Below, in pieces: positions 12 through 17,455 of a stretch of 18,067 nucleotides of DNA; the first letter of the stretch is position 1, and each line of letters opens with the position of its first letter. The stretch covers positions 1-18,067 of the forward strand of contig JAGQGA010000002.1 of the NCBI GenBank assembly GCA_020432595.1. The letters run 5' to 3'. Origin of the DNA: Anaerolineales bacterium (lineage in GTDB: Bacteria > Chloroflexota > Anaerolineae > Promineifilales > Promineifilaceae). The notes under the pieces were generated by a model. That model was not told the DNA's origin, did no database searches, and worked only from the letters and a program-made list of their open reading frames with translations. Position numbers and translations under genes: made by a program.

Positions 12-722
12 TTACCGTGCCCCTTGCTGCGCCTCGGCCACAATCAGTGGCCATGGGTCTTGCTCCTCACGCACCAACACTACTGCCGGGTCATTTTCGT
101 AATAACCCAAATACCGCTCCGGCAGCAATGCCCCAATATGCGCCATAATCAGCCGCGAATAAAGCGGCAAATCCTGGCTTCTAGCGCGATGATCTAACAC
201 TGGCAAAAAAAACGGCCGTCCAATGTGGAGTTCCAGCGGGGTGCGGCGCAGCTTTTTCGTGTTGGCAAACAGCACTTCCATATTGACAAATCCAACTGGC
301 AAAATTGGCACATGGCTGCGGCTTGCCAGATACGCCGCCCCATCCTTAGCAATTCGCATCTGCCCCCCCTTGCTGCGCGACCCTTCGGGAGCCAGCCCAA
401 AGACCGCCCCGCCTTCCAGTGCGGCAATCGCCTCACGCAGCGAATCGCGCCCCACGTTGTCGCGGTCAATAAAAATTGCTCCCAGCCGGGACATGATGGG
501 GCCATAAAGCCAATGACGCTGCCATTTGTCCCCGGCAAAAAAACGCCATTCAACGATGGGAAAGCCAATCAGTAGCGCCGGGGTGTCGGCCACGCTGATG
601 TGGTTGAGCACGACCAGGTACGGCCCTTGCTCTGGAATATTTTCGCGGCCGTAAACGGTCAGCGAGGAGATGGATTGTTGCACCAGGCGCAACATAAAGC
701 GAGCCAGTCGGTATCGAAACAT
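12..722 (-). CDS. 1-acyl-sn-glycerol-3-phosphate acyltransferase-like protein (PlsC family)
   Basis: A 236-residue member of the PlsC/LPLAT family, which moves an acyl chain to lysophosphatidic acid (or a related acceptor) at the inner face of the membrane in phospholipid synthesis. Seen: the catalytic HX4D motif at H41-D46 (NHISVAD), the acceptor-binding block GAIFIDRDNVGRDS near residues 81-94, and the PEGSRS motif at 112-117 (family PEGTRS). The length is typical. No strong hydrophobic anchor precedes the HX4D block, so attachment is probably peripheral. It starts at ATG 720-722 without an obvious Shine-Dalgarno and is divergent from the ATPase cassette. The final codons are complete (TAA at 12-14). 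It carries one ACGGCCGT octamer (212-219), unlike the adjacent cassette. The exact acceptor substrate is not visible; hemolysin- or ornithine-lipid-type LPLATs are alternatives. Confidence 0.9.
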   Translation of the reverse strand: MFRYRLARFMLRLVQQSISSLTVYGRENIPEQGPYLVVLNHISVADTPALLIGFPIVEWRFFAGDKWQRHWLYGPIMSRLGAIFIDRDNVGRDSLREAIAALEGGAVFGLAPEGSRSKGGQMRIAKDGAAYLASRSHVPILPVGFVNMEVLFANTKKLRRTPLELHIGRPFFLPVLDHRARSQDLPLYSRLIMAHIGALLPERYLGYYENDPAVVLVREEQDPWPLIVAEAQQGAR

Positions 723-762
723 GATGCTATTTTACCGATGAAGTTCCAAATTGCCCTAAACC

Positions 763-778
763 TGCTATAATTTCACAA
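763..778 (+). promoter_or_regulatory. Extended -10 promoter for the ATPase cassette
   Basis: TGCTATAATTTCACAA holds a perfect extended -10 (TGCTATAAT; hexamer at 766-771). The best -35-like match, TTCCAA at 744-749, is poor, as is common for extended -10 promoters. A start site near 778 would leave a leader of about 50 bases before the ATG at 828. The same 16-mer occurs at 6225-6240 before the FtsX permease. Promoter assignment is inference from sequence. Confidence 0.65.
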
Positions 779-791
779 AATCACCCAAAAG

Positions 792-827
792 ATGAACCAC
801 CCTGAAATGACATTTTCACGAGATTAA
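792..827 (+). CDS. Possible 11-codon leader ORF before the ATPase gene
   Basis: ATG at 792 opens an 11-residue frame (MNHPEMTFSRD) that ends in TAA at 825-827, directly against the ATPase ATG at 828 (TAAATG). It lies in the predicted leader transcribed from the 763-778 promoter. A weak purine stretch (AAAAG) precedes it. It could couple translation to the downstream gene or be chance; nothing in the peptide is recognisable. Confidence 0.2.
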   Translation: MNHPEMTFSRD

Positions 828-2210
828 ATGATAACAGCTCTTGAGTTAGACGGTTTTAAAACCTTTCACAATTTTAGAATTGAATTTGCTCCCTTCCAGG
901 TCATTGTTGGTGTCAATGGTGTTGGTAAAAGCAACTTGTTCGATGCCATGCAGCTTCTATCACGACTGGCATCTGACAACAATCTGCTATCCGCTTTTCG
1001 GGGATTGCGCGGAGAGGCAGATGAACTATTCACAACTCACGATAGCCTGTCATCTGCTTATAAAATGCGTCTTGCTGCTGAGATATTTGTTGAACGCTAT
1101 ATAAAAGATAGTTGGGGTGCAGAAGCAGCATTAAAATACACACGCCTACGCTATGAACTAGAAATTGAGCGCCGCAAAGATCCCCAAGGCCTGGAACGGC
1201 TATATGTAACCCATGAATCTTTAACATCTATTCCTCGTCATGACGACCAGTGGATCAAACGGCACAAATTATCTTCATCAGATTGGCTTCCTAAAATTAC
1301 AGGGGGTCGCTCACCTTTTATATCAACGGATCCAATGGCTCAGACCATTTCGCTACATCAAGATGGGAGAAGTGGCCGCAAAAATAGTAATGCCGAAAAG
1401 GTGGAAAGAACTGTTTTAAGTAATGTTACTGACACCGAATTTCCTCATGCGTTTGCTGCCCGTGAAGAAATGCGACAATGGAAATTCCTACACCTCAATC
1501 CCACAAATTTAAGACAACCCAGCCCTTTCATCAGTAATCCTTATTTGTCAACAAGTGGCGAAAATTTAGCAGCCACATTAGCCAGGATTCGATCTGTAGA
1601 CCCATATTTGCTAAATGATATTTCAAGAGATATAGCGAATTTAGTTCCTGGAATTATTAGAATCGAGGTCGAACAGGACGAAGTCCAAAAACGGTATGTT
1701 ATCTGGGCCATTACCCAAGATGGACAGCGATTTTCATCAAGGGTTCTATCTGATGGAACCCTACGCTTGTTAGCCCTTACAACACTAAAATATGATCCTG
1801 AATATAAAGGGGTTTTATGCTTTGAGGAACCGGAAAATGGTGTTCATCCCTTCCGGTTAGAGAATTTAGTTCGGTCGTTACGTGATTTAACAACAGATTT
1901 TTCTACAGCAGAGGCTACGCCTGAATTACTTCGCCAATTACTCATTAATACACACTCTCCTGTTCTTGTCAGCCAATTAGACGTGAACTCAGAGTTATTG
2001 TTTGCTCACATGGTTTCGCAAACGCAACCTGAATATAGGAATGTTCACAGAATAACAAAAATTTTTCCAGTTAAAGCTGAGAGGCAGTTGATGCTGGATC
2101 TGGGGATTGCTAAAGCAGAAGAGGCCTATGCTGTTAGTGAGGTCGTCAAATACCTGGATAGTACAGATCTCGGCGAAGCACAAGCTACTGTACAAAAAAA
2201 TGGTCTATGA
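828..2210 (+). CDS. AAA family ATPase (AAA_21/RecF-OLD-like ABC ATPase), probable defence component
   Basis: A 460-residue SMC/RecF/OLD-like ABC-type ATPase without membrane segments. Seen: Walker A GVNGVGKS at 28-35, preceded by the usual N-terminal strand (FKTFHNFRIEF); an ABC signature equivalent LSDGTLR at 307-313; Walker B with catalytic glutamates VLCFEEPENGVHP at 329-341; and a His switch NTHSPVLV at 374-381. The roughly 270 residues between Walker A and the signature would form a divergent lid or coiled-coil insertion. The stop overlaps the next start (ATGA, 2207-2210), so the two genes are translationally coupled. Known: such ATPases paired with a TOPRIM-like partner occur in OLD-type, Gabija-like and PARIS-like anti-phage systems, where the ATPase senses and the partner cleaves. 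Role here is inferred. The gene is clearly AT-richer than its neighbours (for example 23 of 60 G+C at 1621-1680) and lacks the ACGGCCGT octamer, suggesting acquisition. Confidence 0.9.
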   Translation: MITALELDGFKTFHNFRIEFAPFQVIVGVNGVGKSNLFDAMQLLSRLASDNNLLSAFRGLRGEADELFTTHDSLSSAYKMRLAAEIFVERYIKDSWGAEAALKYTRLRYELEIERRKDPQGLERLYVTHESLTSIPRHDDQWIKRHKLSSSDWLPKITGGRSPFISTDPMAQTISLHQDGRSGRKNSNAEKVERTVLSNVTDTEFPHAFAAREEMRQWKFLHLNPTNLRQPSPFISNPYLSTSGENLAATLARIRSVDPYLLNDISRDIANLVPGIIRIEVEQDEVQKRYVIWAITQDGQRFSSRVLSDGTLRLLALTTLKYDPEYKGVLCFEEPENGVHPFRLENLVRSLRDLTTDFSTAEATPELLRQLLINTHSPVLVSQLDVNSELLFAHMVSQTQPEYRNVHRITKIFPVKAERQLMLDLGIAKAEEAYAVSEVVKYLDSTDLGEAQATVQKNGL

Positions 2211-2911
2211 GTCAACTTGTCGTCGCATTCTATGGTGAAGGCACATCAGATGAAAAATTTTTGCCACCTCTCATCCAGCGAACAGTGGAGCAAACTATCT
2301 TGCAGCATCAGGGATATGCAGAGGTTTTACCACCGGTCATTTTAGATGGGCAGAAAATCCGTAGCCAACAGAGTAACCAAGTGCAGCGCATCATTCGTGC
2401 ATCTCAAGAAGCATACGGGTTCCATATCCTGGTCATTCATAGTGACGCTGATTCATCGAACACACAAAAAGCGTATGATGAGCGCATCAAACCTGGTATA
2501 GAAGCCGTAAACACATTAGCACAGTCACAAGAACCTGTTTGCTCTTCCTTACTTCCTATTATCCCTGTACGCATGGTTGAGGCGTGGATGCTAGCCGACA
2601 TCAATGCATTTCAACAAGTTGTTGGAACAAACCTGACGTATTCAGATTTAAAACTGCCACAACATCCTCAGCAGGTAGAATTAATCCAGGCTCCCAAGAC
2701 TACATTACAGCAAGCCGTAACCCTGGCTCTTTCCCGACGTTCTGGACGGCGTTTGATTCCGCTTGATACGATTTATGAGCCATTAGCACGCCAAATAAGC
2801 CTTGAGCGTTTATCACGCATTCCTGCCTTTATTGAGTTTCAACAAGGTATCGTTCAGGCTCTGCAACGACTACAAATTATTCCGCAGATTCAAACAAAAG
2901 GAGCAAGATAG
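2207..2911 (+). CDS. DUF4276-like / TOPRIM-like protein, partner of the AAA ATPase
   Basis: A 234-residue soluble protein resembling the DUF4276 family, which is thought to have a TOPRIM-like fold. Seen: [10 protein letters not shown] at residues 10-19 with a conserved-type Glu (E11) at the end of the first strand; HSDADS at 78-83 giving a DxD pair (D80, D82); and [11 protein letters not shown] at 121-131, a block I associate with this family. A Glu followed by DxD is the metal-binding layout of TOPRIM nucleases and topoisomerases. It follows the ATPase with an ATGA overlap. It would be the effector (nuclease or RNase-like) if the pair works as other ATPase/TOPRIM defence pairs do; that is inference. 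Its last codons include the purine-rich AAAAGGAG (2896-2903) that probably serves as the trpB ribosome binding site. Composition is AT-rich like the ATPase gene (26 of 60 G+C at 2461-2520). Confidence 0.8.
2896..2903 (+). promoter_or_regulatory. Ribosome binding site for trpB, inside the preceding gene
   Basis: AAAAGGAG lies 12 bases before the ATG at 2916, within the last codons of the DUF4276-like gene. It supports the internal ATG at 2916 over the longer frame that opens at 2802. The spacing is a little long for a canonical site. Confidence 0.55.
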
Positions 2912-2915
2912 AATT

Positions 2916-4124
<1,209 letters not shown>

Positions 4125-4144
4125 CCCAAGATTGGAATCTTCGG

Positions 4145-5044
4145 TTACAAGTGGGCGAATTCGGTGGTGATTTGGACGGTTTGGAAGTAAAGGGCGACGG
4201 TTTCGCTTAATAAACGGCCGTATCCACCCGCCATCAACACCACCACCGGCACCCCCGCCTGGCGGCAGCGGCGTAGCACTAGCTTGTCCCGCGCCGCCAT
4301 TCCCGCTGCCGACAATGCCAGCCGCCCCAGCCGATCATGGACATGGACATCGGCTCCGGCTAGATAAAAAATCAGCTCCGGTTTGGTAGCCAGCGCCTGC
4401 ATGACGGCTGGCTCCAACTGCCGTAAATAAGCGGTATCTTCAGTGCCGTCTAGCAGCCCAATATCAAGGTCGCTGGGAACTTTGCGGAAGGGGAAATTTT
4501 TCTCGCCGTGGATGGAAAAGGTAAAGATGGTGGGGTCGCTGGCCGCAATTTCGGCGGTGCCATTGCCCTGATGGACGTCACAATCAATTACCGCCACCCG
4601 CCGCACGCGCCCTTCGGCCTGCATTGTTCGCGCCGCCACCACCACGTCATTGTAAAGGCAATACCCCTGGCCGTGGTCGCGGCAGGCGTGGTGGGTGCCG
4701 CCTCCCAGTGACAGTGCCAACCCATCGCGCAGGGCGATGCGGGCAGCCGCTGTGGTGGCTCCCACGGTGTACTGCACCCGGTTGATTAGCTCCGGCGACC
4801 ACGGCAACCCAATGCGCCGCATTTCGGCTCGGCTCAACAGACCTTGCTCAAGCCGCTGTAGATAGCTGGGAAGATGGGCGCGTTGCAGGGAAACGGCCGT
4901 TATTTTTGGAGCCGCCACCAAATCATCCGCCGCCACCAGCCCCGCTGCCTGCACCCGCTCCCGCAACAGCCGATATTTGTCAGCGGGGAAGCGGTGGTTT
5001 TCTGGTAAAGGAAAGGTGTGGTGGTCGTAGTAAAAAATTTTCAT
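4145..5044 (-). CDS. Histone deacetylase family protein (AcuC-like amidohydrolase)
   Basis: A 299-residue cytosolic zinc amidohydrolase of the arginase/HDAC superfamily; relatives remove acetyl or other acyl groups from lysines, polyamines or small substrates. Seen: the opening [20 protein letters not shown] typical of bacterial members, GGGTHHA with the catalytic His pair at 118-119, [15 protein letters not shown] with zinc ligands D156 and H158, third ligand D232 in AGADVHVHD, and the terminal MAGGYGR with the transition-state Tyr at 275. All active-site positions are present. It starts 9 bases after the J-domain gene stop, so the two are an operon. No Shine-Dalgarno precedes the ATG; a 12-bp palindrome (5043-5054) spans the junction. 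It contains two ACGGCCGT octamers. The substrate cannot be read from sequence. Confidence 0.93.
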
Positions 5045-5053
5045 GCAGCTGCA

Positions 5054-6067
5054 TCAATCATAATCATCGCCATACGGGTCTTCTTCCCCCCAATCCAGCG
5101 GGTTGCGCCCCCGGTACACCCACTCTTCAAACGCCAGCGTTGGGTCTTCATCGAGCAACGCCTGCTCCAATCCCAAATCATAAATCGTGTCGGCTAAGTC
5201 ATCCATCGCCAGCAATTCCACCGTTCGATCCCGCTGGCTTTCCCGTTCGCTCTCCAAATTGTCGCGCTCGGCTCGCTTCCGCGCCATCTGCTTCTGCAAA
5301 TCCTGCCACATTTCAGCAAAGTAATCGCGCCCAACGGCCGTTAATTTTTCCGCCTGCTGCATCCGGCGGCTGCTTTCATGCCGCTCCAGGCGGCTCAACT
5401 CCTGCTCAAGCTCACGCAGCCGCCGCTGGCAGCTTTCCAATTCACGGCGCAGTGCGTCCACCAATTCCTGGTCAGAATAATGGTAGGTGCCAGAAATGCT
5501 GTCTGGCTCCAGTTCCAGCGTTTGCAGCCGTTCCAAATCGTTGGCAGCATAGGCGGCATTGATCCGCATCATCATGTCGGTGCGGTAGGTGCGGTCTGCC
5601 TCGTTAGGGGCCAGGTCGGGGTGAAAACGGCGAGCCAGACGACGATAGAGCCGCTTGAGTTCGGCACTTTGGTCTTCGCTGAGGCGGGGGGTTGGTTTTT
5701 CGGGGGTTAACGGCCGTTCTCGATACCGATACTCCCCCGATGCCGCCGCCCCATGCTCCGCATCCAGCCGCCAATTTTTCAGCCACTCATCCGCCTCATC
5801 CCCATCAAATTGCGGCCCCTCCTCCCGCTGCAAACGCCGAATCTCGCTTCGCAGCCGCCGAATCTCCTCATCCAGCTTCTCTACCCGCTTCAACAGCGGC
5901 TCCAGCCGAGAGCGTAGCTTAAACTCAAAGGCACTAATCGCCGCCAACCGCTCCGCCAAATTCGCCTCCGCCTCAATTAGCCGAGGGCGAATCTCCTGAA
6001 GCTGCCGCTGCAATGCCTCAACTTGCTCCTGCCAAATCGTTTTCGCCTGAATCAGTTCGCTTTTCAT
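5054..6067 (-). CDS. Coiled-coil protein with a DnaJ (J) domain
   Basis: A 337-residue soluble protein. Seen: charged heptad-like coiled coil at residues 1-85; a central J-domain at about 131-185 with the HPD motif at 149-151 (helix II LYRRLARRFHPDLAP, then a helix III containing MMMRINAAYAAND); a second coiled coil at about 200-275; and an acidic tail ending WGEEDPYGDDYD. It lacks the Gly/Phe region and zinc-finger of DnaJ, so it is a specialised J-protein that probably recruits Hsp70 (DnaK) to a particular client rather than a general co-chaperone. Known: the HPD loop is essential for stimulating Hsp70 ATPase. ATG at 6065-6067 has a good Shine-Dalgarno (AGGA, 5-base spacing). It is the first gene of an operon with the deacetylase-like gene. 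It carries two ACGGCCGT octamers. Confidence 0.85.
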   Translation of the reverse strand: MKSELIQAKTIWQEQVEALQRQLQEIRPRLIEAEANLAERLAAISAFEFKLRSRLEPLLKRVEKLDEEIRRLRSEIRRLQREEGPQFDGDEADEWLKNWRLDAEHGAAASGEYRYRERPLTPEKPTPRLSEDQSAELKRLYRRLARRFHPDLAPNEADRTYRTDMMMRINAAYAANDLERLQTLELEPDSISGTYHYSDQELVDALRRELESCQRRLRELEQELSRLERHESSRRMQQAEKLTAVGRDYFAEMWQDLQKQMARKRAERDNLESERESQRDRTVELLAMDDLADTIYDLGLEQALLDEDPTLAFEEWVYRGRNPLDWGEEDPYGDDYD

Positions 6068-6143
6068 CTACGTCCTATTTTCCCGCTCATTTGGGCAAAT
6101 GGTAGCCTAAAATCTGGGCATTATCAATCGGGTAAAGGGTGAG

Positions 6144-6173
6144 ATTGGGAGGTTGAGAAGCTAATCTCCCAAT
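6144..6173. repeat. Imperfect hairpin in the 6068-6322 spacer
   Basis: ATTGGGAG (6144-6151) and CTCCCAAT (6166-6173) are perfect complements separated by 14 bases. It lies between the divergent J-domain gene and FtsX permease. It resembles the other low-complexity inverted repeats of the window in style, with a different sequence. The rest of this spacer contains the promoter at 6225-6240 and a leader ORF; I see nothing else in it. Confidence 0.5.
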
Positions 6174-6224
6174 TACCGCCGTCATGCCGCTGTCATACTC
6201 CTACCACCCTCCCATCGGCAACCG

Positions 6225-6240
6225 TGCTATAATTTCACAA
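6225..6240 (+). promoter_or_regulatory. Extended -10 promoter for the FtsX permease
   Basis: TGCTATAATTTCACAA, identical over 16 bases to 763-778; the -10 hexamer TATAAT is at 6228-6233 with the TG extension at 6225-6226. No good -35 is visible. A start near 6240 would give a leader of about 80 bases before the permease ATG at 6323. Confidence 0.65.
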
Positions 6241-6242
6241 GG

Positions 6243-6326: not shown

Positions 6327-8743
6327 AACCACGTTGGCGCAAGGTTTTGCGCGATGTCTGGGCTAACAAAACCAGAACCATTATCGTCTTGCTATCCATC
6401 GCCGTGGGCGTGGCCGCCATCGGCATGGTCATGGGGTCGCAGCTTATCATTGACCGCGACCTGCCGGCAGATTTTGCGGCTGTCAACCCCGCCAGCGGCA
6501 CTATTTTTGCTCTCAACACTTTCGACGACGACATGATTGAGGCCATTCGCGCCATGCCAGAAGTTGAAGCGGCTGAAGGTCGCCGCTTTGTCGTCGTCCG
6601 CTTTTTGGGCGACGATGGCGAATGGCATAATCTCCAGCTTTTCGCCGTGCCTAACTTTGATGAAATGACCATCAACAAGCTCAAGCCGCAAACGGGCGAA
6701 TTTCCCCCGGCCGAGCGCAACATCTTGCTGGAACGCGCCGATTTGTTCCCCACGAATGCGGCGGCGTTGGGTTTTACGGGCATCGAAGTTGGAGATACGG
6801 TGACGATTGAGCCACCCGACGGCCGGCAGCGTGAGGTTGTCATTTCTGGCACCACGCACGATCTGAGCCAGCTTCCCGCCTTTATCGCGGGTACCGGCTA
6901 TGGCTATATCACTTACGACACCCTGGAATGGCTGGGCGAACCGCGTGACTATAATCAAGTTGTTTATGTGGTAAAAGAAAACAAGCTAGATGCTGAACAT
7001 GTGCAGGCCGTTGGCAAACTCATTGAAAATCGGCTAGAGCGCAGCGGCGTACAGGTCATCTTCACCCTTGTGCTATCACCCGGCGAACACCCGGCGCAAA
7101 ATTTCCTCAACGCCTTTTCCTATGTGCTGGGTGCGGTCGGCTTTCTGGCTCTGGGGCTAAGCAGCTTTCTCATCATCAACATTTTGGCAGCCATTCTGGC
7201 ACAGCAGGTGCGGCAAATTGGCATCATGAAAGCGATTGGGGCACGCACGGGACAAATTGGCAGCATGTATTTTGTGTTGGTTGTCATGTTTGGGCTAATG
7301 GCGGTGCTGATAGCGATACCACTGGGTGCTCTTGGGGCAACTGCTTTGGCAAATCTATTTGCCACGCTGCTCAACTTTGATGTCGGCGGTTTTGCTCTGG
7401 ACCCGACGGTGGTGCTGGTGCAGGTCGCCATTGGGCTAACAGTGCCGCTGCTGGCGGCCATTTTTCCCATTGTGCGCGGCGTGAACGTGACGGTGCGCGA
7501 GGCCGTAAATACCGAGCAGGGGCTGGGCAAAGGGCAGTTTGGCACAGGGCTGGTGGACAAATTGGTGCTGGGACTGCGGCGTGTTATTCCCATGCAGCGG
7601 CCGGCGCAAATTTCACTGCGGAATACGTTCCGGCGTAAGGGGCGGCTCATTTTGACGCTGGTCACGCTGTCGCTGGCGAGCGCCATTTTTATCAGCATTC
7701 TTAGCGTGCGGGCATCGCTGCTGCAAACGCTGGATGATGCGCTGACTTATTTTGATTATGATGTGCAGGTGCAGTTTAGCCGGCCGTACCGCACCGACCG
7801 CATTCAACGGGCATTAACCACCATCCCGGAGGTGGAAACGGTGGAGACGTGGGGGTTTGCCAGCACGCGCCGCATTCGACCTGACAATTCGGAAAGCGAC
7901 ACGATTATTCTTTATGCACCAACGGCCGATTCTGGCATGTTGAACCCGATATTGATAAACGGCCGTTGGCTGCGCCCCGACGACACCAATGCCGTTGTTC
8001 TCAACACCGACGTACTGCGAAACGAAGACGACATCACCGTCGGCACCCCCATTGTGCTGGAGCTAAATGGCAAAAACCAGACCTTTGTCGTCGTGGGGCT
8101 AGTGCGCGGCGTTCTTACTGGCCCCAATGCCTTTGTCAACTTTGACTATTTTGGCCGCATCACTAAACAGGTAGACCGCGCCCAAATCTCCCTCGTGCGG
8201 CTGACCGACCGCAGTGCTGCCGCCCAGGGCCGTCTGTCTCCTGTGCTGGAAGATGCCTACCGCGACGGCGGCTTCCGTGTGGAAGTGGTGCAAACCATTT
8301 CTCAGGTGCGCACCATCATTAGCACCATTTTCAACGTCATTATCGCCTTTTTGCTGGCTATGGCCGTACTGCTGGGTGTCGTCGGCGGGCTGGGGCTGAT
8401 GGGAACAATGAGCATCAACGTGCTGGAACGCACCCGCGAAATTGGGGTAATGCGAGCTATTGGCGCGTCCGACGGTGCGGTGCTGCGAATTGTGCTGCTG
8501 GAAGGGATAATCATCGGGTTGATTAGCTGGCTGATTGGCGGTCTCATCGCCATTCCCACCAGTCGCATCCTGACAGATACCGTGGGCAATCTGCTGCTGC
8601 AAGCCGCGCCCAGCTTTGTCTTTGCCACCTGGGGCGCAGGCTTTTGGCTGCTCATCATCCTGCTGCTGGCACTCGTTGCCAGCTTCCTCCCCGCCCGTGG
8701 TGCTTCGCGCCTCACCATTCGTGAGGTGCTGGCGTATGAGTAG
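6323..8743 (+). CDS. ABC transporter permease with duplicated FtsX domain (MacB-like)
   Basis: An 806-residue integral membrane protein of the type VII ABC (FtsX/MacB/LolCE) superfamily. Seen: TM1 at about 18-38; an extracytoplasmic core at about 42-255; TM2-4 at about 264-385 with the coupling segment QVRQIGIMKAIGA (294-306); a second module beginning at RNTFRRKGR with TM5 at about 442-463; a second core at about 480-655; and TM6-8 at about 664-795 with RTREIGVMRAIGA (703-715). Known: such permeases do not carry substrate through a channel but use ATP hydrolysis for mechanotransmission (lipoprotein extraction, peptide or macrolide efflux). No LolD/MacB-type ATPase gene adjoins, so the partner is encoded elsewhere. 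Start: ATG 6323 has AGGA with 7-base spacing; the in-frame TTG at 6302 has no ribosome binding site. The stop TAG lies within an inverted repeat. Confidence 0.92.
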   Translation: MKPRWRKVLRDVWANKTRTIIVLLSIAVGVAAIGMVMGSQLIIDRDLPADFAAVNPASGTIFALNTFDDDMIEAIRAMPEVEAAEGRRFVVVRFLGDDGEWHNLQLFAVPNFDEMTINKLKPQTGEFPPAERNILLERADLFPTNAAALGFTGIEVGDTVTIEPPDGRQREVVISGTTHDLSQLPAFIAGTGYGYITYDTLEWLGEPRDYNQVVYVVKENKLDAEHVQAVGKLIENRLERSGVQVIFTLVLSPGEHPAQNFLNAFSYVLGAVGFLALGLSSFLIINILAAILAQQVRQIGIMKAIGARTGQIGSMYFVLVVMFGLMAVLIAIPLGALGATALANLFATLLNFDVGGFALDPTVVLVQVAIGLTVPLLAAIFPIVRGVNVTVREAVNTEQGLGKGQFGTGLVDKLVLGLRRVIPMQRPAQISLRNTFRRKGRLILTLVTLSLASAIFISILSVRASLLQTLDDALTYFDYDVQVQFSRPYRTDRIQRALTTIPEVETVETWGFASTRRIRPDNSESDTIILYAPTADSGMLNPILINGRWLRPDDTNAVVLNTDVLRNEDDITVGTPIVLELNGKNQTFVVVGLVRGVLTGPNAFVNFDYFGRITKQVDRAQISLVRLTDRSAAAQGRLSPVLEDAYRDGGFRVEVVQTISQVRTIISTIFNVIIAFLLAMAVLLGVVGGLGLMGTMSINVLERTREIGVMRAIGASDGAVLRIVLLEGIIIGLISWLIGGLIAIPTSRILTDTVGNLLLQAAPSFVFATWGAGFWLLIILLLALVASFLPARGASRLTIREVLAYE

Positions 8744-8811: not shown

Positions 8812-9552
8812 ATGAGCCGTTTTACTTCCTACCTCGGCATCACCCGTTCGCTGCTAATGTACTACGGTACGCCGTGGCGGACCCGGCGGTTGCTGTGTTT
8901 TTATGGGCAGTTTATTCGGCCTGGAGACCTTTGTTTTGACATTGGGGCGCATGTGGGCAACCGAATGCGACTATGGCGCAAGCTGGGCGGGCACATTGTC
9001 GGGGTGGAACCACAGCCGCAGTTGATGCGGTTGCTGCGGCAAAGTTATGGCCACTTTTCCACCATCAACCTCCTTGAACAAGCGGTTGGTGCAGAGCCAG
9101 GGGAAGCAACGCTTTATGTGAGCGAGCGAACGCCTACCGTGACTTCGCTATCGGCAGGGTGGATAACGGCCGTTTCTCAAGACCCCACCTTTGCTCATGT
9201 GCAATGGAACCAGCAAATCACTGTTCCCGTCACCACGCTGGATGCACTGATTGCCGAGTTTGGCCTGCCCGCTTTTTGCAAAATTGACGTGGAGGGGTAT
9301 GAGCTGGAAGTACTGCGCGGGCTGTCGCAGCCGTTGCCTGCACTGTCGTTTGAGTATGTTGCTGCCACGATGCCGCTGGCGCTGGCCTGCATTGACCGAC
9401 TAACTGAGCTTGGCAACTACGAATTTAACTGGTCAGAAGGAGAGCAGCACCGTTGGCAAACGGCCGTTTGGTTCCCCCCCGCCGACCTCAAGCAGCGGTT
9501 GCAAGCTGTGCAAAGAGGTTCTGGTGACATTTATGCCCGGAGGATTCAGTAA
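8812..9552 (+). CDS. FkbM family methyltransferase
   Basis: A 246-residue SAM-dependent class I methyltransferase of the FkbM family (MT_21), whose members O-methylate sugars or polyketide hydroxyls, often in surface glycan or natural-product synthesis. Seen: SAM-binding motif I CFDIGAHVGNR at 41-51, the acidic strand-2 end VGVEPQPQ at 63-70, and the family block CKIDVEGYELEVLRGL at 156-171. The length is usual. ATG 8812 has no Shine-Dalgarno; the nine bases between the preceding hairpin and the ATG are GTGTGATC-like, so initiation may depend on read-through from the permease or a leaderless start. No glycosyltransferases or biosynthetic genes adjoin it, so the substrate is unknown. It carries two ACGGCCGT octamers, both read as Thr-Ala-Val. 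Its TAA stop lies in the next inverted repeat. Confidence 0.88.
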   Translation: MSRFTSYLGITRSLLMYYGTPWRTRRLLCFYGQFIRPGDLCFDIGAHVGNRMRLWRKLGGHIVGVEPQPQLMRLLRQSYGHFSTINLLEQAVGAEPGEATLYVSERTPTVTSLSAGWITAVSQDPTFAHVQWNQQITVPVTTLDALIAEFGLPAFCKIDVEGYELEVLRGLSQPLPALSFEYVAATMPLALACIDRLTELGNYEFNWSEGEQHRWQTAVWFPPADLKQRLQAVQRGSGDIYARRIQ

Positions 9553-9611: not shown

Positions 9612-10850
9612 TCAATCTGCCGCTGCCAAAACCAACCCCGGTGTCATACGAGTGCGGTTGCGGCGGTAGAAGTGGAGCATGAAAACGGCCGTTAACAATC
9701 CCACCATTCCAAACGTCACCCACGGCAGCATGTGCATCCCGTTTGCCATCGCATAATCCACCAATACACCACCCGCAATGTGCCCAATGCCTCCCCCAAT
9801 CGCCAGTGCCAGCGAATTGACGCCAAAATACGCCCCTCGCGCCGTTGGGTCAGCCAAACTGGCGGCAATCGTTTCCGCATTGGGCATCACCAGCACAATC
9901 CCGGCAGCAAAGAAAAAGACCGAGACATATAAATGCCATACCGTTTCCACCAGTGCCACCATCCCCAATGAAAACGCCATAGACACAATCCCCACAATAA
10001 TCATCGGCATCGGCCGCAAGAAACGCTGCGCCAGCCGCAGCAGCGGCACCTGCAGCACAATGGCAATGACCGCATTGACCGTAAACAGCATTCCCACGCT
10101 GCTGTCACTACCCGTCAGTGTCTTCACTTCCAGCGGCATGGCAATGGAAAGTTGTGTCCACATAAACCAAAAACCCATCATCAAGGCGGTATAGAGCAAA
10201 AACGGCCGATCATGAAAGGCCAAGTTTAACCCCTGCGTCATTGGCTGCTTTTCGTTGGATACCTGAACGGCTGGTAACAGCAGCAGCGACAGCACAAACG
10301 CCAGCAGGAAAAAGCTGGCCGAGGCGGCGCCAACATAAGCAAAGTCATACTGGATCAAAAACGACCCCACAATAGGCCCCACCGTTCGCGCCAAATTCTG
10401 CAGCACACCAATCCGCGCATACAGTTCACTGAGCTGTTCGGCCGGAGCCAAAGCTGCCACTGCGGCCTTAAGCGGTGCGCCAAACATCGCCCCACCTAAT
10501 GCCGCCAGTGCGCCCCCGGCCAAGAGCATGGTTGGTGTGGTAGCAAACCCCATCAGCACAAAGCTAAAAGTACGCACCAGCGTTCCCAATACGATCAGCC
10601 CTTTGGCACCAAAGCGATCTGCCAATGCCCCGCCAAACACCGAAAGTCCCTGCTGGGCAAATTGGCGCACCGCCAGCACAATGCCAATAAATGCCGCTGC
10701 CCACCCCAAGTCATCTACATAATGCACTGACAGGAGTGGAATAATGAGAAAAAAGCCAGCGTGCATCAAAAACCAGGTAATCAACGCTACCGTCAACCCG
10801 CGCTGCCGTGCCTGAGGTGTCAGCTCGCTCGCCAATTTTTGTTTCATCAT
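9612..10850 (-). CDS. Major facilitator superfamily transporter (drug-efflux-like)
   Basis: A 412-residue MFS protein with about 12 hydrophobic helices, most like the DHA1 drug:H+ antiporters (for example MdtH-type), inferred from overall layout. Seen: the MFS motif A between TM2 and TM3, GGALADRFGAKG at about residues 72-83; a repeat-half break around the polar loop NEKQPMTQG near 220; and a short basic C-terminal tail after the last helix (HFYRRNRTR). The frame opens at 10940, but that extension would run through the kinase gene's terminator; tandem ATGs at 10850 and 10847 with GGGA nine bases upstream of the first fit the family N-terminus. Substrate cannot be told. It lies downstream of the kinase gene on the same strand but beyond its terminator, so it needs its own promoter or read-through; I see no clear promoter in the few bases available. 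Confidence 0.9.
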   Translation of the reverse strand: MMKQKLASELTPQARQRGLTVALITWFLMHAGFFLIIPLLSVHYVDDLGWAAAFIGIVLAVRQFAQQGLSVFGGALADRFGAKGLIVLGTLVRTFSFVLMGFATTPTMLLAGGALAALGGAMFGAPLKAAVAALAPAEQLSELYARIGVLQNLARTVGPIVGSFLIQYDFAYVGAASASFFLLAFVLSLLLLPAVQVSNEKQPMTQGLNLAFHDRPFLLYTALMMGFWFMWTQLSIAMPLEVKTLTGSDSSVGMLFTVNAVIAIVLQVPLLRLAQRFLRPMPMIIVGIVSMAFSLGMVALVETVWHLYVSVFFFAAGIVLVMPNAETIAASLADPTARGAYFGVNSLALAIGGGIGHIAGGVLVDYAMANGMHMLPWVTFGMVGLLTAVFMLHFYRRNRTRMTPGLVLAAAD

Positions 10851-10930: not shown

Positions 10931-13900
10931 CTACGGACAAATCGCATCGGCCACGTCTTGCCAGGTATTAGCGTTGTTGGAATTGGCATCGTTGTTAGGC
11001 CAACTCACAAAGTCCGCGTTGCCACCGTTGGTACCTGCATACAGCACCTGCAGCATGAGGCCAAACGGGTTATTGATGCCGCCCATTTCGGCTACCACAT
11101 CCACTTCCAATTCCACCACCCACTGGTTGCCGCTGTTGCCAAACGTGGCTGTCCAGTTACCGCTGGGGTTAACAGGTGTCCAATTTTGCCCGTCGGAGTT
11201 ACTGCTGATGCCGTTGCGAACCTGCACCGAGCCATCCCGCCCAATTTGGAAGAAGCGGTCGGCAGAATCGGGATCGCCGCCGTTATTGGTGGTGTCAAAG
11301 TATATCCGCAGCGAATCCTCTGGGTCGGCGGTATCGTCGTTGATCAGGAAAGCCCAATACATCTTGCTGGCATCACGTCGGTAGTAAATTTGCACCAGCC
11401 GCGCTGGGTTGTTTTCCGTCTGGAACTGGATCAGTGCCTGCCCCGGCCATTCGGCCACACTAAACGAGCCATCTATAACAGGTGCCACCTGGCCTTGACC
11501 AATGCAGGCAGCGTTGGAATTCGGAACGGCCGTATTTGTGGCAGTTGGCGGCGGCACCGTGGCCGTCGGGGTCATTGTCGCCGTCCCTGTAGCCGTGGCC
11601 GTGGATGTCGGTGTGGCTGTTCCCGTGGCCGTTGGGGTTGGCGTAACCGTTGGCGTGTTGGTAATTGTCGGCGTCACACTAGGAGGCAGCGTAGCCGTAG
11701 CCGTAGCCGTTTCAGTCGGCGTGCCAGACGTTGGCGTAGCGGTTGGCGTTTGGTCAGCCACCAGCGGGTCGGTACCTTGTGTCAATTCAGTGCCATCTGG
11801 CACACCGTCGCCATCGGTATCGGCCTTGGCCGGGTTAGTTTTGTACTGGTTAACCTCATCGCCATCGGGCAAAATGTCGCCATCGGTGTCGCGCTTGTTA
11901 GGGTCACTACCGTAGATAAACGCCTCATCGCCATCTTTTAGCCCATCGCCGTCAGAATCGGGATTATTGGGGTCGGTGCCAATTTGGGCTTCCTGGCTAT
12001 CGGTCAAGCCATCGTCGTCAGCATCGCCAATGACAACGGCCGTTTCGGCAATGCTTGTGGCCGCCACCAACGTTTGGGCAGCAACGGCCGTTTGCGTGGC
12101 CTGCACCTCAAACCCAGCCACCGCCGTGGGGGCCGTCGTCCCCCACAGTTGCCGCAGTGAACCTTGCGCCAAAGCGATCATTGCAAAAGCACAAGCAAGC
12201 GTCAGCAGAAAAATCAGCCCATACATTGCCCAGGTCGGAATCATCGAACCCGCTTGGGCCTCTCCCGTAAGCGTCTGCCGCCCGCCGGCCCGTGACACCA
12301 CCTCAACTTCAAAAGGATACACACCACCGCCGCCAAACACACTTTGGCTACGCGGCTCCACGGCCAGCTCTACGTGGGCAATTTGCCCCGGATTGATGCC
12401 AATGCGCCCGGTTTCTCCCCGGAATTGCAGCGCACCCTGGCGGTCACGCGCCACAACGCTGAAATTAGCGGGCGCGTTGCCGGTGTTTTGTACCCGCACA
12501 ACGGCCGTTCCCGGCACGCGCAACTGTTCCGCATCCAGGCTGGCTTCAAAGGCCACATACGTCCCCAGCAGCAAAAACGCATTCTCCGCCACCCGCAAAT
12601 CCGGGTGACGTTGTGACACCAGTTCAATGCGAAAACGCTGCCGCCCAGTGGGGGTAGTCGGATGGCGCGGCGGACGGAAAGAGAGCGTCAGCGACACCGT
12701 TTGCCCCGCTGGAACCGACACAAAACCATCGGGCATTGTGACCCACGAGCCAGGGATACCCTGCACCCGCAGCCCCACCCGATCATCGGTATTGCCCCGA
12801 TTTAGTACCTCCACCGTCATATCCACCCGCTGCCCAGGGTCAACCGCAATTTGCTCCCGCGTCAAGAACAGTGCCAATGGATCCACGACGGGTTCTACGG
12901 GTGCAGATGGCTGCGACGGCACCTGGGTATGGGCAACGCCTGGCGTTACCGGGCGGCGCAGCACCGTATGGGCATGGGGTTCAGATTCGGCCGTGATGGG
13001 CATTTCTGGCCCTTGCAGCAGCAGTTCATACGGCCCAACACGGATCACAGAACCGGGCAAAATGGGGGTAGGATGATCGGGCAGCAAGCGACGGTCATCT
13101 ACAAAGGTGCCGTTGATGCTGTTCAGGTCAACAATTTCCCACCCTAAGGATGTGGCTTGTAGCCGGGCGTGTTGGCGTGAAACCCCTTCGGCCGGCAGCA
13201 CCACATCATTTTCTACCCGCCGCCCCAGCGAAATCACCGAACGGGTTAGCGGCACGACGCTGGCATCGTGCCCCGGCGTGCTAATATGCAGCGCAAAACC
13301 GGGGGGTGGTTCCGGCACGCGCTCTAAAATGCTGACCTCCTCCGGCGTCACAATCTGGGTGGAAGTGCTTTCCAGCGAAAGCTGGGCACTCCGCAGCGCG
13401 GCCGCTAACTCTGCCCCCGTTGCAAAACGGTCAGCGGGGTCCTTGGCCAAGGTTTTTGCCAGCAAATTGTCAATCAGCAGCGGAATATCGGGGCGCACTT
13501 CGCTGACAAAGGGAGGCATGGCACCGCGAATGTGGGCTTGCAGTGCCTCGGACAGCGATTTGAAGGTAAAAGGCAGCTTGTTGGTAAATAGCTCATAAAG
13601 CACAATCCCCAACGAGTATAGATCGGTACGACCATCGAGCGCCCCGCCCTCGCATTGTTCCGGCGACATATAAGTGGGCGTTCCCAGCGTGGCACCGCTT
13701 TCAGTCATGCCGCCCGCCCCTTGTAGCTTCACTAGCCCAAAATCGGTGAGCAGGGCGCGGAAGGGGGCGTTGTTGGTCTCGTCCACCTGGTTCAGCCGCT
13801 TCAAAATGATGTTGCCCGGCTTAACATCGCGGTGAATGATTCCCTGGCGATGGGCGTAATCCAATGCTTCGGCAATTTGGATGCCGATTTGCAGGCTTTG

Positions 13901-14245: not shown

Positions 14246-14261
14246 AACTGCCTCGAAGAGT

Positions 14262-14328
14262 GTAGCAAGTTGCAGGTGGCAAGTTGCAGGTCTTGATGAC
14301 TTGTAACTTGTTACCTGCTACTTGCAAC
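14262..14328. repeat. Long inverted repeat between threonine aldolase and kinase genes
   Basis: 31-base arms (14262-14292 and 14298-14328) with a 5-base loop match at 25 positions; four mismatches are G-U-compatible in plus-strand RNA. The word GCAAGTTGCAGGT is repeated within the left arm. It belongs to the same family as 15434-15495, sharing the 13-mer ACCTGCTACTTGC. No T-tract; it occupies most of the 93-base spacer. Confidence 0.85.
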
Positions 14329-14338
14329 CTAACAAAAC

Positions 14339-15376
14339 TTACAAGATTTGGCGCACGGTATGTAGAAAGAGGTCAACATCGGCTCGGGTAATCCAATAAT
14401 GAGTTACGGCGCGGAATCGCTTGCCGTAACCGCCGCCTACCCAAATGTTGGCTTTTTCCCGCAGTTGGGCAGCAAATTCTTCGCTGCTTACTTTGGCATC
14501 GGCTGCCAAATCAAAAAAGACGATGTTGGTGCGCACCATGTCAACGTCAATGTCAATACCGGGGATGGTGGCTAATCCTTCGGCCAGGGCGTGTGCGTTG
14601 TCGTGGTCATCAGCCAGCCGTTCAATCATTTCGTGAAGGGCAACAACCCCAGCAGCGGCTACTACGCCAGCCTGACGCATGGAGCCACCGACCAACTTGC
14701 GTAAACGGCGGGCGCGTTGAATCACTTCAGCAGAACCACACAAAACAGAGCCAATGGGGGCAGATAACCCTTTGCTGAGGCAAAAGGTAACGCTGTCTAC
14801 GTGCTGGGTAATTTCGCGGGCATCTATGCTTTGGGCAACGGCCGAATTAAATAGCCGGGCACCATCCATATGGACAGACATGTTGTGGTGCTGGGCGATG
14901 GTGCGGATGTTGGCGTAGTAATCGGGCGAAATGGGGTAGCCGAATTTGGTGCCGTAACTGTTTTCCACGGCAATGAGACGGGAGATGGGATAGTGGGGGT
15001 CGTTAGCACGAACGGCCGTTTCCACCTCCGCCAAATCCATCTTGCCATACTTATCCGTTGCCAGTTGGCGCATTGCCACGCCCCCCAGCACCGATACACC
15101 GCCCGCTTCGGCCAGCGCAATATGTGAATCTCGCCCTAAAATCACCTCATCTCCCCGCTGGGCATGGCTAAGAACCCCCAACAGATTGCCCTGAGTGCCG
15201 CTGGTCACAAAAACGGCCGCTTCTTTGCCCACTTTGGCGGCCGCCAATCGTTCCAACTCATTGACCGTTGGATCTTCCCCATACACATCATCCCCAATTG
15301 GGGCAGTTGCCATAGCCTCCTTCATACGCGGAGTCGGCCAGCTTACAGTATCGGAGCGAAAATCAATTTTGTCCAT
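14339..15376 (-). CDS. ltaE: Low-specificity L-threonine aldolase
   Basis: A 345-residue PLP enzyme of fold type I that cleaves L-threonine or L-allo-threonine to glycine and acetaldehyde, feeding glycine and one-carbon metabolism. Seen: the family opening DFRSDTVSWPTPRMKEAM (residues 5-22), GDDVYGEDPTVNELE (28-42), cofactor-stacking H85 in RDSHI, pyridine-binding D171 in VHMDGARLFN, and PLP lysine K202 in TFCLSKGLSAPIGS. The length is typical. ATG 15374-15376 has no clear Shine-Dalgarno. It is divergent from the RlmA-type gene across a 127-base spacer that holds an inverted repeat, and is upstream of the kinase gene on the same strand with another repeat between. One ACGGCCGT octamer is present (15012-15019). 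Substrate stereochemistry is not evident from sequence; the symbol is by family similarity. Confidence 0.95.
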   Translation of the reverse strand: MDKIDFRSDTVSWPTPRMKEAMATAPIGDDVYGEDPTVNELERLAAAKVGKEAAVFVTSGTQGNLLGVLSHAQRGDEVILGRDSHIALAEAGGVSVLGGVAMRQLATDKYGKMDLAEVETAVRANDPHYPISRLIAVENSYGTKFGYPISPDYYANIRTIAQHHNMSVHMDGARLFNSAVAQSIDAREITQHVDSVTFCLSKGLSAPIGSVLCGSAEVIQRARRLRKLVGGSMRQAGVVAAAGVVALHEMIERLADDHDNAHALAEGLATIPGIDIDVDMVRTNIVFFDLAADAKVSSEEFAAQLREKANIWVGGGYGKRFRAVTHYWITRADVDLFLHTVRQIL

Positions 15377-15433
15377 GCGTGAAGTTTACGTAATATTGGC
15401 AAGATTGCAAAATATCCTGCTAAAGAAGGAGCG

Positions 15434-15495
15434 AGTGGCAAGTGCAAGTTACAAGTCATGATAGTTTGCTGACTTGCAACCTGCTACTTGCCACT
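15434..15495. repeat. Inverted repeat in the threonine aldolase/RlmA divergent spacer
   Basis: Arms at 15434-15457 and 15471-15495 pair with two mismatches and one single-base gap around a 13-base loop. Words AGTGGCAAGT, GCAAGTTACAAGTC and GACTTGCAACCTGCTACTTG mark it as the same family as 14262-14328. The right arm ends eight bases before the ATG at 15504. Confidence 0.85.
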
Positions 15496-15503
15496 TGTAA
15501 CCC

Positions 15504-16352
15504 ATGATGAGAGAACGTTGTTTACGGCCGTTTATATGCCCCATTTGCCAACAGCCACTGCACCGCAGCGGTGGCGGTGCCCGCTGCCCACAAAACCACA
15601 CCTTTGATTTTGCCCGCGAAGGGTACTTACATTTGCTGCCGGGGGGTGGCAAACGGCCGAAATTTTTGGGTGATAGCACCGACATGGTGCAGGCGAGGCG
15701 GCGCTTTTTAGACACTGGGCTTTATGAACCGCTGCGAATGCGGCTGCAAACGATAGCAAAGCAATGCGTAGAAACGATCAACGAGCCAGTTGTGGTCGAG
15801 ATGGGCTGCGGTGAGGGGTATTACGTAGGTGGGCTGGCAGAACAATGGCCGTCGGCAGGCTGTTTTGTGGGGGTGGATGTGGCGAAGGAGGCGGTGCGGC
15901 TGGCGGCACGGCGGTATCAGGGGGTGCAGTTTGCGGTGGCGGATGTTAAACGGCCGTTGCCGCTGACACCCGCTTGCGCCCACCTGCTGCTCAACATTTT
16001 TGCCCCGCGCCAGCCCGCCAGCTTTGCCCAACTGCTGGCTCCCGGCGGCTGGCTGCTGGTGGTTATTCCCCAAGATAATCATCTGGCTACAGTACGCGAG
16101 CAACTGGGACTGCTCACAATTGAAACGGACAAGGAAGCCAAAGTGGTGGCGCAGTTTACACCGTGGCTGCGGCTGGTGCGCCAGGAAACGGTATCGTTTG
16201 CGCTGACATTAACTGCCAACACCCTGGCTGATTTGGTACTGATGTCGCCGAACGCCCGCCATTTGGACGAAGGGCAGCGGGCGGCACTAGCAACGCTGCC
16301 GCTCCACAGCAGCGAGGCAAGCCTGACGCTGCTTTTGTTTCAGCGGAGTTAG
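15504..16352 (+). CDS. rlmA: 23S rRNA (guanine-N1)-methyltransferase, RlmA family
   Basis: A 282-residue SAM-dependent enzyme of the RlmA/TlrB family, which methylates N1 of G745 (RlmA-I) or G748 (RlmA-II) in the peptide exit tunnel of 23S rRNA. Seen: an N-terminal zinc finger C12, C15, C28, H32 (CPICQQPL, then CPQNHTFD); the RlmA block REGYLHLLP and GDSTDMVQARRRFLDTGLYEPL at 38-77; motif I VVEMGCGEGYY at 97-107; and FAPRQPASFAQLLAPGG at 166-182. SPNARH near 248-253 may favour the RlmA-II side, but I cannot settle that. Two adjacent ATGs (15504, 15507) follow the inverted repeat with no Shine-Dalgarno. It converges on the lipid kinase gene. It carries two ACGGCCGT octamers, read as Arg-Pro. 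A possible side effect is altered macrolide or tylosin susceptibility, as known for the family. Confidence 0.92.
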   Translation: MMRERCLRPFICPICQQPLHRSGGGARCPQNHTFDFAREGYLHLLPGGGKRPKFLGDSTDMVQARRRFLDTGLYEPLRMRLQTIAKQCVETINEPVVVEMGCGEGYYVGGLAEQWPSAGCFVGVDVAKEAVRLAARRYQGVQFAVADVKRPLPLTPACAHLLLNIFAPRQPASFAQLLAPGGWLLVVIPQDNHLATVREQLGLLTIETDKEAKVVAQFTPWLRLVRQETVSFALTLTANTLADLVLMSPNARHLDEGQRAALATLPLHSSEASLTLLLFQRS

Positions 16353-16382
16353 CCATGTAGCATAGCTGCACTATGAAGAATC

Positions 16383-16448
16383 AAAATAGGACGCAGATTT
16401 TCCTGATTTTCTTGATCCGGTTCATCAGGTTAATCTGCGTCCTATTTT
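16383..16448. repeat. Perfect-armed inverted repeat between convergent genes (shared transcript end?)
   Basis: 17-base perfect arms AAAATAGGACGCAGATT (16383-16399) and its complement (16432-16448), with an inner six-base pair CCTGAT (16402-16407)/ATCAGG (16424-16429). The right arm runs into the lipid kinase stop codon (TGA 16448-16450 on the minus strand); the RlmA-type gene ends 31 bases to the left. Both strands end in TTTT after the stem, so it may terminate both genes. It also has the look of a dispersed palindromic element. Confidence 0.85.
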
Positions 16449-17455
16449 CAGGAGAGGTAATCGGCCAAAGATTTGGCAGGGTGGACAAACAGGTCTGTGG
16501 GGGTTGTTTGCGGAACAAGGAGCCACAGGGCGCGGGGTCTGATCTCGCACTGAATCGGGGTTTGTCTGGCTGGCTCACCGTCGGTTTGGGTGGCGGCGGT
16601 GGGGGTGGCGTGGATGGTGATGGAACGGCCGTTTATCCGTTCTATCCCCTCTCCCTGCGCCTGCCCTTGCCGGCGAATGCGCGACAAATAGCGCCACGCT
16701 GTCGCCAGCCCGTGGCCGCGCAGCAGCCAAATGTCAAACTGACCGTCGTCTAGCTGGGCTTGGGGGTTCATTACCAGTTCCCCCCCGGCATAGCGGCGAC
16801 AGTTACTGAGCAGCACCAGCAGAAATTGACCAGATTGGGAACGGCCGTCTATAGTCACCTGCATGTCGTGGCGCGGCAGCCGCCAGACGCGCCCCAATGC
16901 TTGCAGCACGTACCCCACCTTGCCCAGCTTTTTTGACCATTTGGGACGGGGTTCAATGTGCTGCACCAAATAGCCATCGGCACCCACGCCTACCCAGAGC
17001 AGCCAATAACGGCCGTTTTCCCCTCCCGCGTCGCTCACCCAACCGAGATCAATTTGTTGCAGACGGCCGTGGAGAAGAGAAACGGCCGTTTGTAATAGCT
17101 GATTGCGGTCAAATAGCGTAGCACGGGGCAACTGTAGCTCCCGCGCAAAAGAATTCGCCGTTCCGATGGGCAGCGGAGCCAGCGCCGTAGCCGACCCGGC
17201 CAGCCCGTGCGCCACATCCCCCAAAGTGCCGTCCCCACCCGCCGCCAAGACAACCCGGTGGTCAGCAGCAACGGCCGTTTGCGCCAACTCTACCGCATGA
17301 CCAGCGTATTGGGTTGGCCGAATAGCCACCTGCCACCCTTTAGCCCGCCATACATCCGCAACCAATTCAATCGTCGAAGCGAGTGCTATCTGCCCAGCAC
17401 GAGGGTTGTAAATCAGCGTAGCCTGCTGTAAAGGAAGTTGAGACGTTGGTTTCAA
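16448..17455 (-). CDS. Diacylglycerol kinase family lipid kinase (YegS/BmrU-like)
   Basis: A 335-residue (as called) member of the DAGK/LCB5 fold that phosphorylates diacylglycerol or a related lipid with ATP at the membrane face. Seen: YNPRAG at 16-21, nucleotide-binding GGDGTLGDVAHGLAG at 73-87, PIGTANSFAREL at 96-107, and the C-terminal beta-domain with the GG/DG loop QLDDGQFDIWLL and ATPTAATQTDGEP near the end. The ATG of the open frame at 17644 lies deep inside the upstream gene and its first residues show no family similarity. I prefer TTG at 17453-17455, with a GGA six to eight bases upstream, giving an 89-base overlap with the P-loop gene; this start is uncertain. Six ACGGCCGT octamers crowd this gene, the densest cluster in the window. 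Confidence 0.88.
   Translation of the reverse strand: MKPTSQLPLQQATLIYNPRAGQIALASTIELVADVWRAKGWQVAIRPTQYAGHAVELAQTAVAADHRVVLAAGGDGTLGDVAHGLAGSATALAPLPIGTANSFARELQLPRATLFDRNQLLQTAVSLLHGRLQQIDLGWVSDAGGENGRYWLLWVGVGADGYLVQHIEPRPKWSKKLGKVGYVLQALGRVWRLPRHDMQVTIDGRSQSGQFLLVLLSNCRRYAGGELVMNPQAQLDDGQFDIWLLRGHGLATAWRYLSRIRRQGQAQGEGIERINGRSITIHATPTAATQTDGEPARQTPIQCEIRPRALWLLVPQTTPTDLFVHPAKSLADYLS

Follow-up and report, generated by a model that had tools for sequence, protein, structure and literature searches.

The 18,067-nucleotide stretch of Anaerolineales contig JAGQGA010000002.1 analyzed here (the window) is studded with the palindromic octamer ACGGCCGT, which raises the question of whether the Chloroflexota possess a counterpart of HIP1, the highly iterated palindrome of cyanobacteria, and what would maintain it. 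HIP1 (GCGATCGC) is a palindromic octamer present at hundreds to thousands of copies per megabase (Mb), with observed-to-expected ratios (O/E) from tens to more than 100; its deviations are concentrated at the first and last positions, and it is linked to solitary methyltransferases (accessible text of PMC4390886). Why cyanobacteria retain HIP1 is an unsettled question that a single phylum has had to answer until now, so a second system would serve as an independent replicate in which the features common to both are likely the cause. We find that ACGGCCGT behaves like HIP1 with another sequence, another phylum and another candidate enzyme, a predicted methyltransferase that we name HipM; the function of the palindrome we infer. 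Our preferred reading, with a probability of about 0.6, is that ACGGCCGT is a Chloroflexota HIP, a probable methylation target of HipM and a mark for DNA maintenance, whose sites phages share.

Abundance, form and conservation of the palindrome

The window contains exactly 23 copies of ACGGCCGT, the first at 212-219 and the last at 17271-17278, compared to a mean of 0.41 (maximum 3) in 200 dinucleotide shuffles and 4 copies of the runner-up palindromic octamer. The original prediction, made from the letters of the window, had counted 23 by hand against about 0.5 expected; its assumed G+C content of about 57% was off (55.2% by measurement), but the rarity of the octamer by chance stands. As it also stated, 17 copies are the 10-mer AACGGCCGTT. 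The letter flanking a copy is A in 39 of 46 cases. At least one site lies in 11 of the 14 called genes, in keeping with the claim that nearly every native gene has one; the accompanying claim of both strands loses its meaning for a palindrome, which reads identically on either strand. The three genes without a site encode an AAA ATPase and a DUF4276 protein (together 828-2911) and a small AAA kinase. The sites, from the pattern count and gene calls, are listed below (strand given as '.'; TAV, read as Thr-Ala-Val).

ACGGCCGT site 1: 212..219, strand., PlsC-like acyltransferase gene
Site 2: 2931..2938, strand., trpB, codons ACG GCC GTT (TAV)
Site 3: 4214..4221, strand., histone-deacetylase-like gene
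Site 4: 4893..4900, strand., histone-deacetylase-like gene, TAV frame
Site 5: 5334..5341, strand., DnaJ-like gene, TAV frame
Site 6: 5710..5717, strand., DnaJ-like gene
Site 7: 7959..7966, strand., FtsX-type permease gene
Site 8: 9166..9173, strand., FkbM methyltransferase gene, TAV frame
Site 9: 9460..9467, strand., FkbM methyltransferase gene, TAV frame
Site 10: 9685..9692, strand., MFS transporter gene, TAV frame
Site 11: 11526..11533, strand., Ser/Thr kinase-FHA gene, TAV frame
Site 12: 12036..12043, strand., kinase-FHA gene, TAV frame
Site 13: 12084..12091, strand., kinase-FHA gene, TAV frame
Site 14: 12501..12508, strand., kinase-FHA gene, TAV frame
Site 15: 15012..15019, strand., threonine aldolase gene, TAV frame
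Site 16: 15524..15531, strand., RlmA-like gene
Site 17: 15950..15957, strand., RlmA-like gene
Site 18: 16625..16632, strand., DAGK/YegS gene
Site 19: 16841..16848, strand., DAGK/YegS gene
Site 20: 17009..17016, strand., DAGK/YegS gene
Site 21: 17063..17070, strand., DAGK/YegS gene
Site 22: 17082..17089, strand., DAGK/YegS gene, TAV frame
Site 23: 17271..17278, strand., DAGK/YegS gene, TAV frame

A repeated octamer could be a by-product of codon or dipeptide usage, an objection that the original prediction raised against itself, and 13 of the 23 window copies are indeed read as Thr-Ala-Val (the other frames give x-Gly-Arg at offset 1 and Arg-Pro at offset 2). Synonymous shuffling within genes reduced the 23 copies to a mean of 2.83 (maximum 7), and in the genomes of five relatives the observed and mean shuffled counts were 215 vs 33 (G834), 142 vs 20 (G691), 110 vs 17 (G842), 58 vs 6 (G846) and 65 vs 8.6 (G838). 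The shuffle is conservative because the codons are already inflated by the motif, and all coding figures are approximate because gene calling simply took the longest frame. Copies are found in each of the three frames, and some of those in the five genomes fall outside called genes. Thr-Ala-Val itself occurs at 5.4-7.4 times expectation with 88-100% of occurrences coded by the motif, whereas VAT, ATV and AVT are without such enrichment. The enrichment is thus not explained by codon or dipeptide usage, a reading that these results refute, and it changes proteins. A caution for the interpretation of these genomes is that a DNA signal drives their codon statistics and tripeptide composition.

Genome-wide counts come from the genomes of relatives, not from the window's own genome. 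We counted AACGGCCGTT in five overlapping sets: 301 genomes across the phylum, 82 of one order, 158 and 41 of two classes, and 396 of the class of genome G346. Thirteen of the 396 carry 1,443-5,060 copies, seven carry 149-877, two carry 79 and 83, and 374 carry 29 or fewer, compared to 0-135 copies of a reversed control pattern across all 396. The genome-wide test proposed at the outset therefore gave counts far above the control pattern in 13 relatives. No rich genome appeared in the phylum sample (maximum 22), the order (maximum 9) or the two other classes (maxima 9 among 158 and 7 among 41).

The 10-mer undercounts the octamer in G838 (877 copies of AACGGCCGTT, yet 1.82 octamers per kilobase (kb) over 40 kb), since octamers in that genome show no preference for a flanking A. 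Loci of G825, G745, G727 and G785, which were chosen by methyltransferase match and not at random, hold 1.18-2.19 octamers per kb, and no copy occurs at the loci of 14 further genomes, namely G830 and 13 of the poor ones. Together, the genomes of this class that appear rich in ACGGCCGT number at least 18. Stretches of G224, G374, G146, G178 and G441, some with clustered 10-mers, were rejected as octamer-poor (0.11-0.46 per kb). The carrier lineage is apparently Promineifilales-like. The window threonine aldolase is 95% identical to an Anaerolineales bacterium protein and 63-68% identical to proteins of Ardenticatenaceae, Promineifilum and other Chloroflexota, and a search for the window permease in the phylum to which a metagenome-assembled genome (MAG) named Chloroflexi bacterium belongs gave relatives at E<=1e-60 in 87 of 400 genomes, the best at 50% identity.

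Density and O/E fall in the HIP1 range. ACGGCCGT occurs at 1,273 per Mb in the window, 1,070-1,980 per Mb (1.07-1.98 per kb) in stretches of the five genomes and 2,059 per Mb in eight pooled phage records. Against an order-1 Markov model, O/E was 62 in the window, 78 in G834, 78 in G691, 68 in G842, 117 in G846, 87 in G838 and 83 in the pooled phages; with expectations from nucleotide frequency, the corresponding counts were 23/0.4 in the window, 237/2.76, 157/2.55, 120/1.95, 64/0.78 and 73/0.91 in the five genomes, and 607/7.06 in the phages.

We also compared single-base neighbors of the octamer with the Markov model, as had been suggested. Variants at the outer positions (1 and 8) are in excess in four of the five genomes, in the window and in phages; the excess is weakest in G834, at 1.3-3.1 times expectation, and spans 1.7-9.2 times in G691, G842, G838, phages and the window. 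For inner-position variants, genomes and phages give 0-2.4 times expectation (every value under 1 in G834, most slightly over 1 in phages), and the window reaches 5 times, on 4 copies or fewer. Stray CGGCCG, not part of an octamer, occurs at 1.6-3.2 times expectation in the window and four genomes and at 4.3 times in phages, compared to 0.4 times in G846. This tolerance at positions 1 and 8 suggests CGGCCG as the recognized core, like CGATCG in HIP1. The methylation link originally proposed for the palindrome is plausible.

Sites persist between relatives. Over one 16.6-kb segment at 90% identity, G858 and G834 share 31 sites with 3 private to each, a conserved fraction of 0.91, compared to 0.53 for the remaining octamers that contain six G/C letters (Fisher test, 2e-11, with each shared site counted twice); of six G858 stretches compared, only C113 aligned, as that single segment. 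Three phage pairs, drawn from three related records, gave 0.84-0.90 vs 0.19-0.50. These data bear on a mutational ratchet, in which mismatch or very-short-patch repair tied to methylated CGGCCG would make ACGGCCGT from near-sites without any benefit, as in Elhai's model for HIP1 (accessible text of PMC4390886). The excess of outer-position variants in four of five genomes speaks for it, as does the GGCC within the site, which would supply the model's G-methyl-C step if the inner C is methylated. However, such strong conservation of position is easier under selection, and together with the phage data below this leaves the ratchet a doubtful alternative.

HipM, a candidate methyltransferase

The candidate enzyme is a predicted zinc-ribbon DNA methyltransferase, solitary and about 660 residues long. 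In an inventory of PF01555 matches in 24 genomes, with translation, we found HipM in 11 of the 12 inventoried rich genomes (all but G635) and in the intermediate genomes G825 and G838, and its layout in none of the nine inventoried poor genomes; a further poor genome, G815, lacks any PF01555 match. A hand calculation puts the chance of 11/12 vs 0/9 at about 3e-5 with kinship ignored. HipM is a single frame of 659-706 residues where complete, with an FxGxG part first, a DPPY part 1.2-1.3 kb later and two Cys-rich stretches; the G798 copy is a fragment located where a contig ends. The translations are mutually 49-94% identical, and DPMMGGGTT and TDPPY are invariant or nearly so in 38 sequences. 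In G709, two overlapping partial copies at contig ends (L266 and L267) differ from one another (72-81%), indicating either two HipM copies or a mixed bin.

Three of three HipM proteins match PF01555 (N6_N4_Mtase) at 51-58 bits (cut-off 26.7), and two reach 15-16 bits against DUF1156 (PF06634), under its cut-off of 24, with no value listed for the third. Matches in NCBIfam and PADLOC are partial only; the similarity is to profiles of DUF1156-type zinc-ribbon DNA methylases (HmaB, and DUF1156_MTase of PADLOC), a group we take to be COG1743, and at 67-81 bits HipM is far below the NF042963 cut-off of 1000. A sequence search found no solved relative, and the AlphaFold model has a predicted local distance difference test score (pLDDT) of 83 and a predicted template modeling score (pTM) of 0.87. 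As a zinc-ribbon protein with a long insert, HipM is unlike the enzymes linked to HIP1.

At least 1,449 homologs of HipM exist among at least 7,997 candidates, and among the 120 listed all named organisms are Chloroflexota, including Ardenticatenaceae and Candidatus Leptofilum, the latter placed in Promineifilales. The 120 proteins contain 174 TAV vs 23 expected, spread over 33 alignment columns and present at least once in 83 of 120, and VAT, ATV, AVT, TVA and VTA occur 4-30 times each. For comparison, AVT occurs 114 times in 120 threonine aldolases and TAV 61 times (about 24 expected), with a single column accounting for half of the TAV. By this proxy the hosts of HipM are probably rich in the palindrome.

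Other partners were tried and rejected: 6 of 13 rich genomes lack the 5-methylcytosine methyltransferase family PF00145, and three PF01555 groups are unrepresented in the full inventories of rich genomes such as G666, G846 and G858. Two further PF01555 groups (L231-L235 and L237; L238-L242), one with DPPY and one with DPAY, were noted, and the motif density of the stretches carrying them is 0.67-2.35 per kb for every copy read.

A restriction-modification system would also pair a methyltransferase with a palindrome, and both CGGCCG and GGCC are known restriction sites. Such sites are usually avoided, especially in phages; no neighbor is common to more than 5 of 14 HipM loci (neighbors were not annotated singly), and no shared defense cluster was seen around HipM. 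We regard ACGGCCGT as a restriction site as scarcely credible. Separately, a gene for a NurA-domain nuclease adjoins HipM in L262, L265 and L266 and lies 3.7 kb away in L264 (two of these are confirmed by Pfam). NurA normally acts with HerA in DNA-end repair, and its proximity provides a lead for the pathway.

Phages rich in the palindrome

Three pattern scans of viral contigs yielded 48 distinct contigs, with loci picked for paired sites. Twenty are rich by our criterion for phage stretches (at least 5 copies, 0.8 per kb and twice the next palindrome), although 19 is the safer figure because 3300017605_001118 is rich only locally, with 9 copies in its whole 67-kb record. Whole-record counts, which are free of local choice although the 19 records themselves were picked by motif and are not a typical sample, gave 0.96-2.53 per kb for ten records and 0.51 for G314, with the other eight not exceeding 0.14. 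Eight rich records, excluding the poorer G312 and G314 and the short G320, together carry 2.06 ACGGCCGT per kb in 295 kb. Several records are clearly from phages, with portal proteins encoded in G303, G305 and G313, tape measures in G303 and G304, a terminase in G313 and integrases in G304 and G313; for the remaining records the phage status comes from the IMG/VR label. The phage stretches examined contain no HipM-like gene, and a search for viral HipM carriers returned five weak loci only. On the motif-rich viral contig G309, L113:1112-2521 encodes a DNA methyltransferase whose front part, judged by eye, is ParB-like.

Carriage of ACGGCCGT at host density by some phages departs from the account of HIP1, whose accessible text makes no mention of phage (PMC4390886). 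It makes the question testable, as phages can separate a host-repair ratchet from selection. Ten of the 19 records resemble hosts in density though phages are probably less under host repair, which counts against the ratchet with the reservation that the records were motif-picked.

Phages also bear on a role in natural transformation. The uptake sequences of Haemophilus and Neisseria reach a similar density and have a similar tripeptide effect, and ACGGCCGT resembles them in both respects. To our knowledge, however, uptake sequences are neither palindromic nor a feature of phages, and phages, whose entry does not involve uptake, can be equally rich. Host non-coding DNA is not enriched, though phage non-coding DNA is (2.91 vs 1.83 per kb on rough gene calls). 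An uptake role is therefore very unlikely.

A putative maintenance mark and its place among known palindromes

In the reading we prefer, a force acting on the DNA itself would keep ACGGCCGT at about 1-2 per kb. HipM, as a candidate amino-methyltransferase, would methylate the site, whole or as its CGGCCG core, and the methylated site would serve DNA maintenance, for example by letting mismatch repair recognize the parental strand or as a mark of self DNA. Phages replicated by the same machinery would carry the same sites. If the core is recognized, the product would be N4-methylcytosine; the alternative is N6-methyladenine at the outer A. Function is the weakest step: strand discrimination in repair, Elhai's proposal, would fit the site density, while the richness of phages favors a mark that benefits any resident DNA. 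More tentatively, ACGGCCGT methylated by HipM may be a cell-wide identity and maintenance mark that chromosome and phages must carry, an independent origin of HIPs outside cyanobacteria with its own enzyme family, reshaping host and phage proteins.

The form of the site also bears on another idea, that it binds a dimeric nucleoid, segregation or repair protein, with methylation incidental. It is a perfect palindrome of 8-10 bp, longer than the usual methyltransferase site, with an A/T flank extending beside it in several genomes as in the window; its spacing along the chromosome is approximately Poisson, and phages carry it too. But 1-2 sites per kb is far denser than known segregation sites, HipM co-occurs, and no candidate binder was found, none having been sought. 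We consider such a role unlikely.

Several observations weigh against a HipM-methylated core. G846 shows no excess of outer variants (0-1.3 times expectation, with inner variants up to 2.4) and its stray CGGCCG is scarce (5 vs 11.8 expected), so the whole octamer may be recognized. DPPY is commonest in adenine methyltransferases, and the CGGCCG core has no A. A fold search with the HipM model matched only generic Rossmann methyltransferases. HipM was not found in G635 (3,261 copies), a MAG that may be incomplete, or in the intermediate G769, and the intermediate G700 has no PF01555 match; matches of G736, G745, G727 and G785 are listed only in part, and poor genomes were judged by match layout, with frames translated for G852 and G818. 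Rich genomes are related, and the co-occurrence may reflect shared ancestry. Finally, that the phages infect these Chloroflexota hosts we infer with the motif as sole link.

Taken against HIP1, ACGGCCGT is likewise a genome-wide octamer palindrome with outer one-off variants and a candidate solitary methyltransferase, which supports the HIP1-like behavior originally predicted; in addition, its positions are conserved. The palindrome is real and wider than was claimed there; its carriage by phages and its rewriting of proteins were not foreseen. Alternate cyanobacterial HIPs (GGGATCCC, a GGCGCC context, rCCGGy and GCsGC) are described in the accessible text of PMC4390886, from which 'CGGCCG' and 'Chloroflex' are absent. 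ACGGCCGT resembles them as another GC-rich palindrome, which in those cyanobacteria takes the place of HIP1 and has a matching methyltransferase in the genome, but each of them occurs sporadically, in no more than one or two strains, whereas ACGGCCGT is apparently common to at least 18 genomes of its class. Octamers as frequent as HIP1 occur in very few bacterial genomes, according to unpublished work mentioned by the author in the accessible part of PMC3497702. Three Chloroflexi bins share the methylated motifs GANTC, TTAA and GCWGC, and CGGCCG is absent from the accessible text (PMC6329791). We found no earlier report of the ACGGCCGT palindrome in the literature searched, which left most subscription papers and bioRxiv outside its coverage; nor did it hold any work joining Promineifil- names with DNA methylation or CGGCCG with Chloroflexota. 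Papers containing ACGGCCGT, judged by title, never treat it as a genome signal, and one on absent words has it, in its accessible part, by chance within a fly word.

Two parts of the window stand apart. The AAA_21 ATPase and DUF4276 genes (828-2911) lie in the motif-free stretch 220-2930 and have 42-45% G+C compared to 50-60% in the other genes; were sites as dense there as elsewhere, 828-2911 would contain none with a probability of about 0.05. The pair is probably foreign, as low G+C and the lack of motif fit recently acquired DNA, and is possibly related to defense. The adjacent TrpB (2919-4124) has mostly proteobacterial best matches and no close relative among the matches listed, and trpB, which already carries one motif, is perhaps an old transfer.

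The site can also serve as a marker for binning contigs and proposing phage hosts. G651 and G769 each contain both motif-bearing and motif-free loci within the same MAG, which suggests binning mix-ups that the motif could detect.

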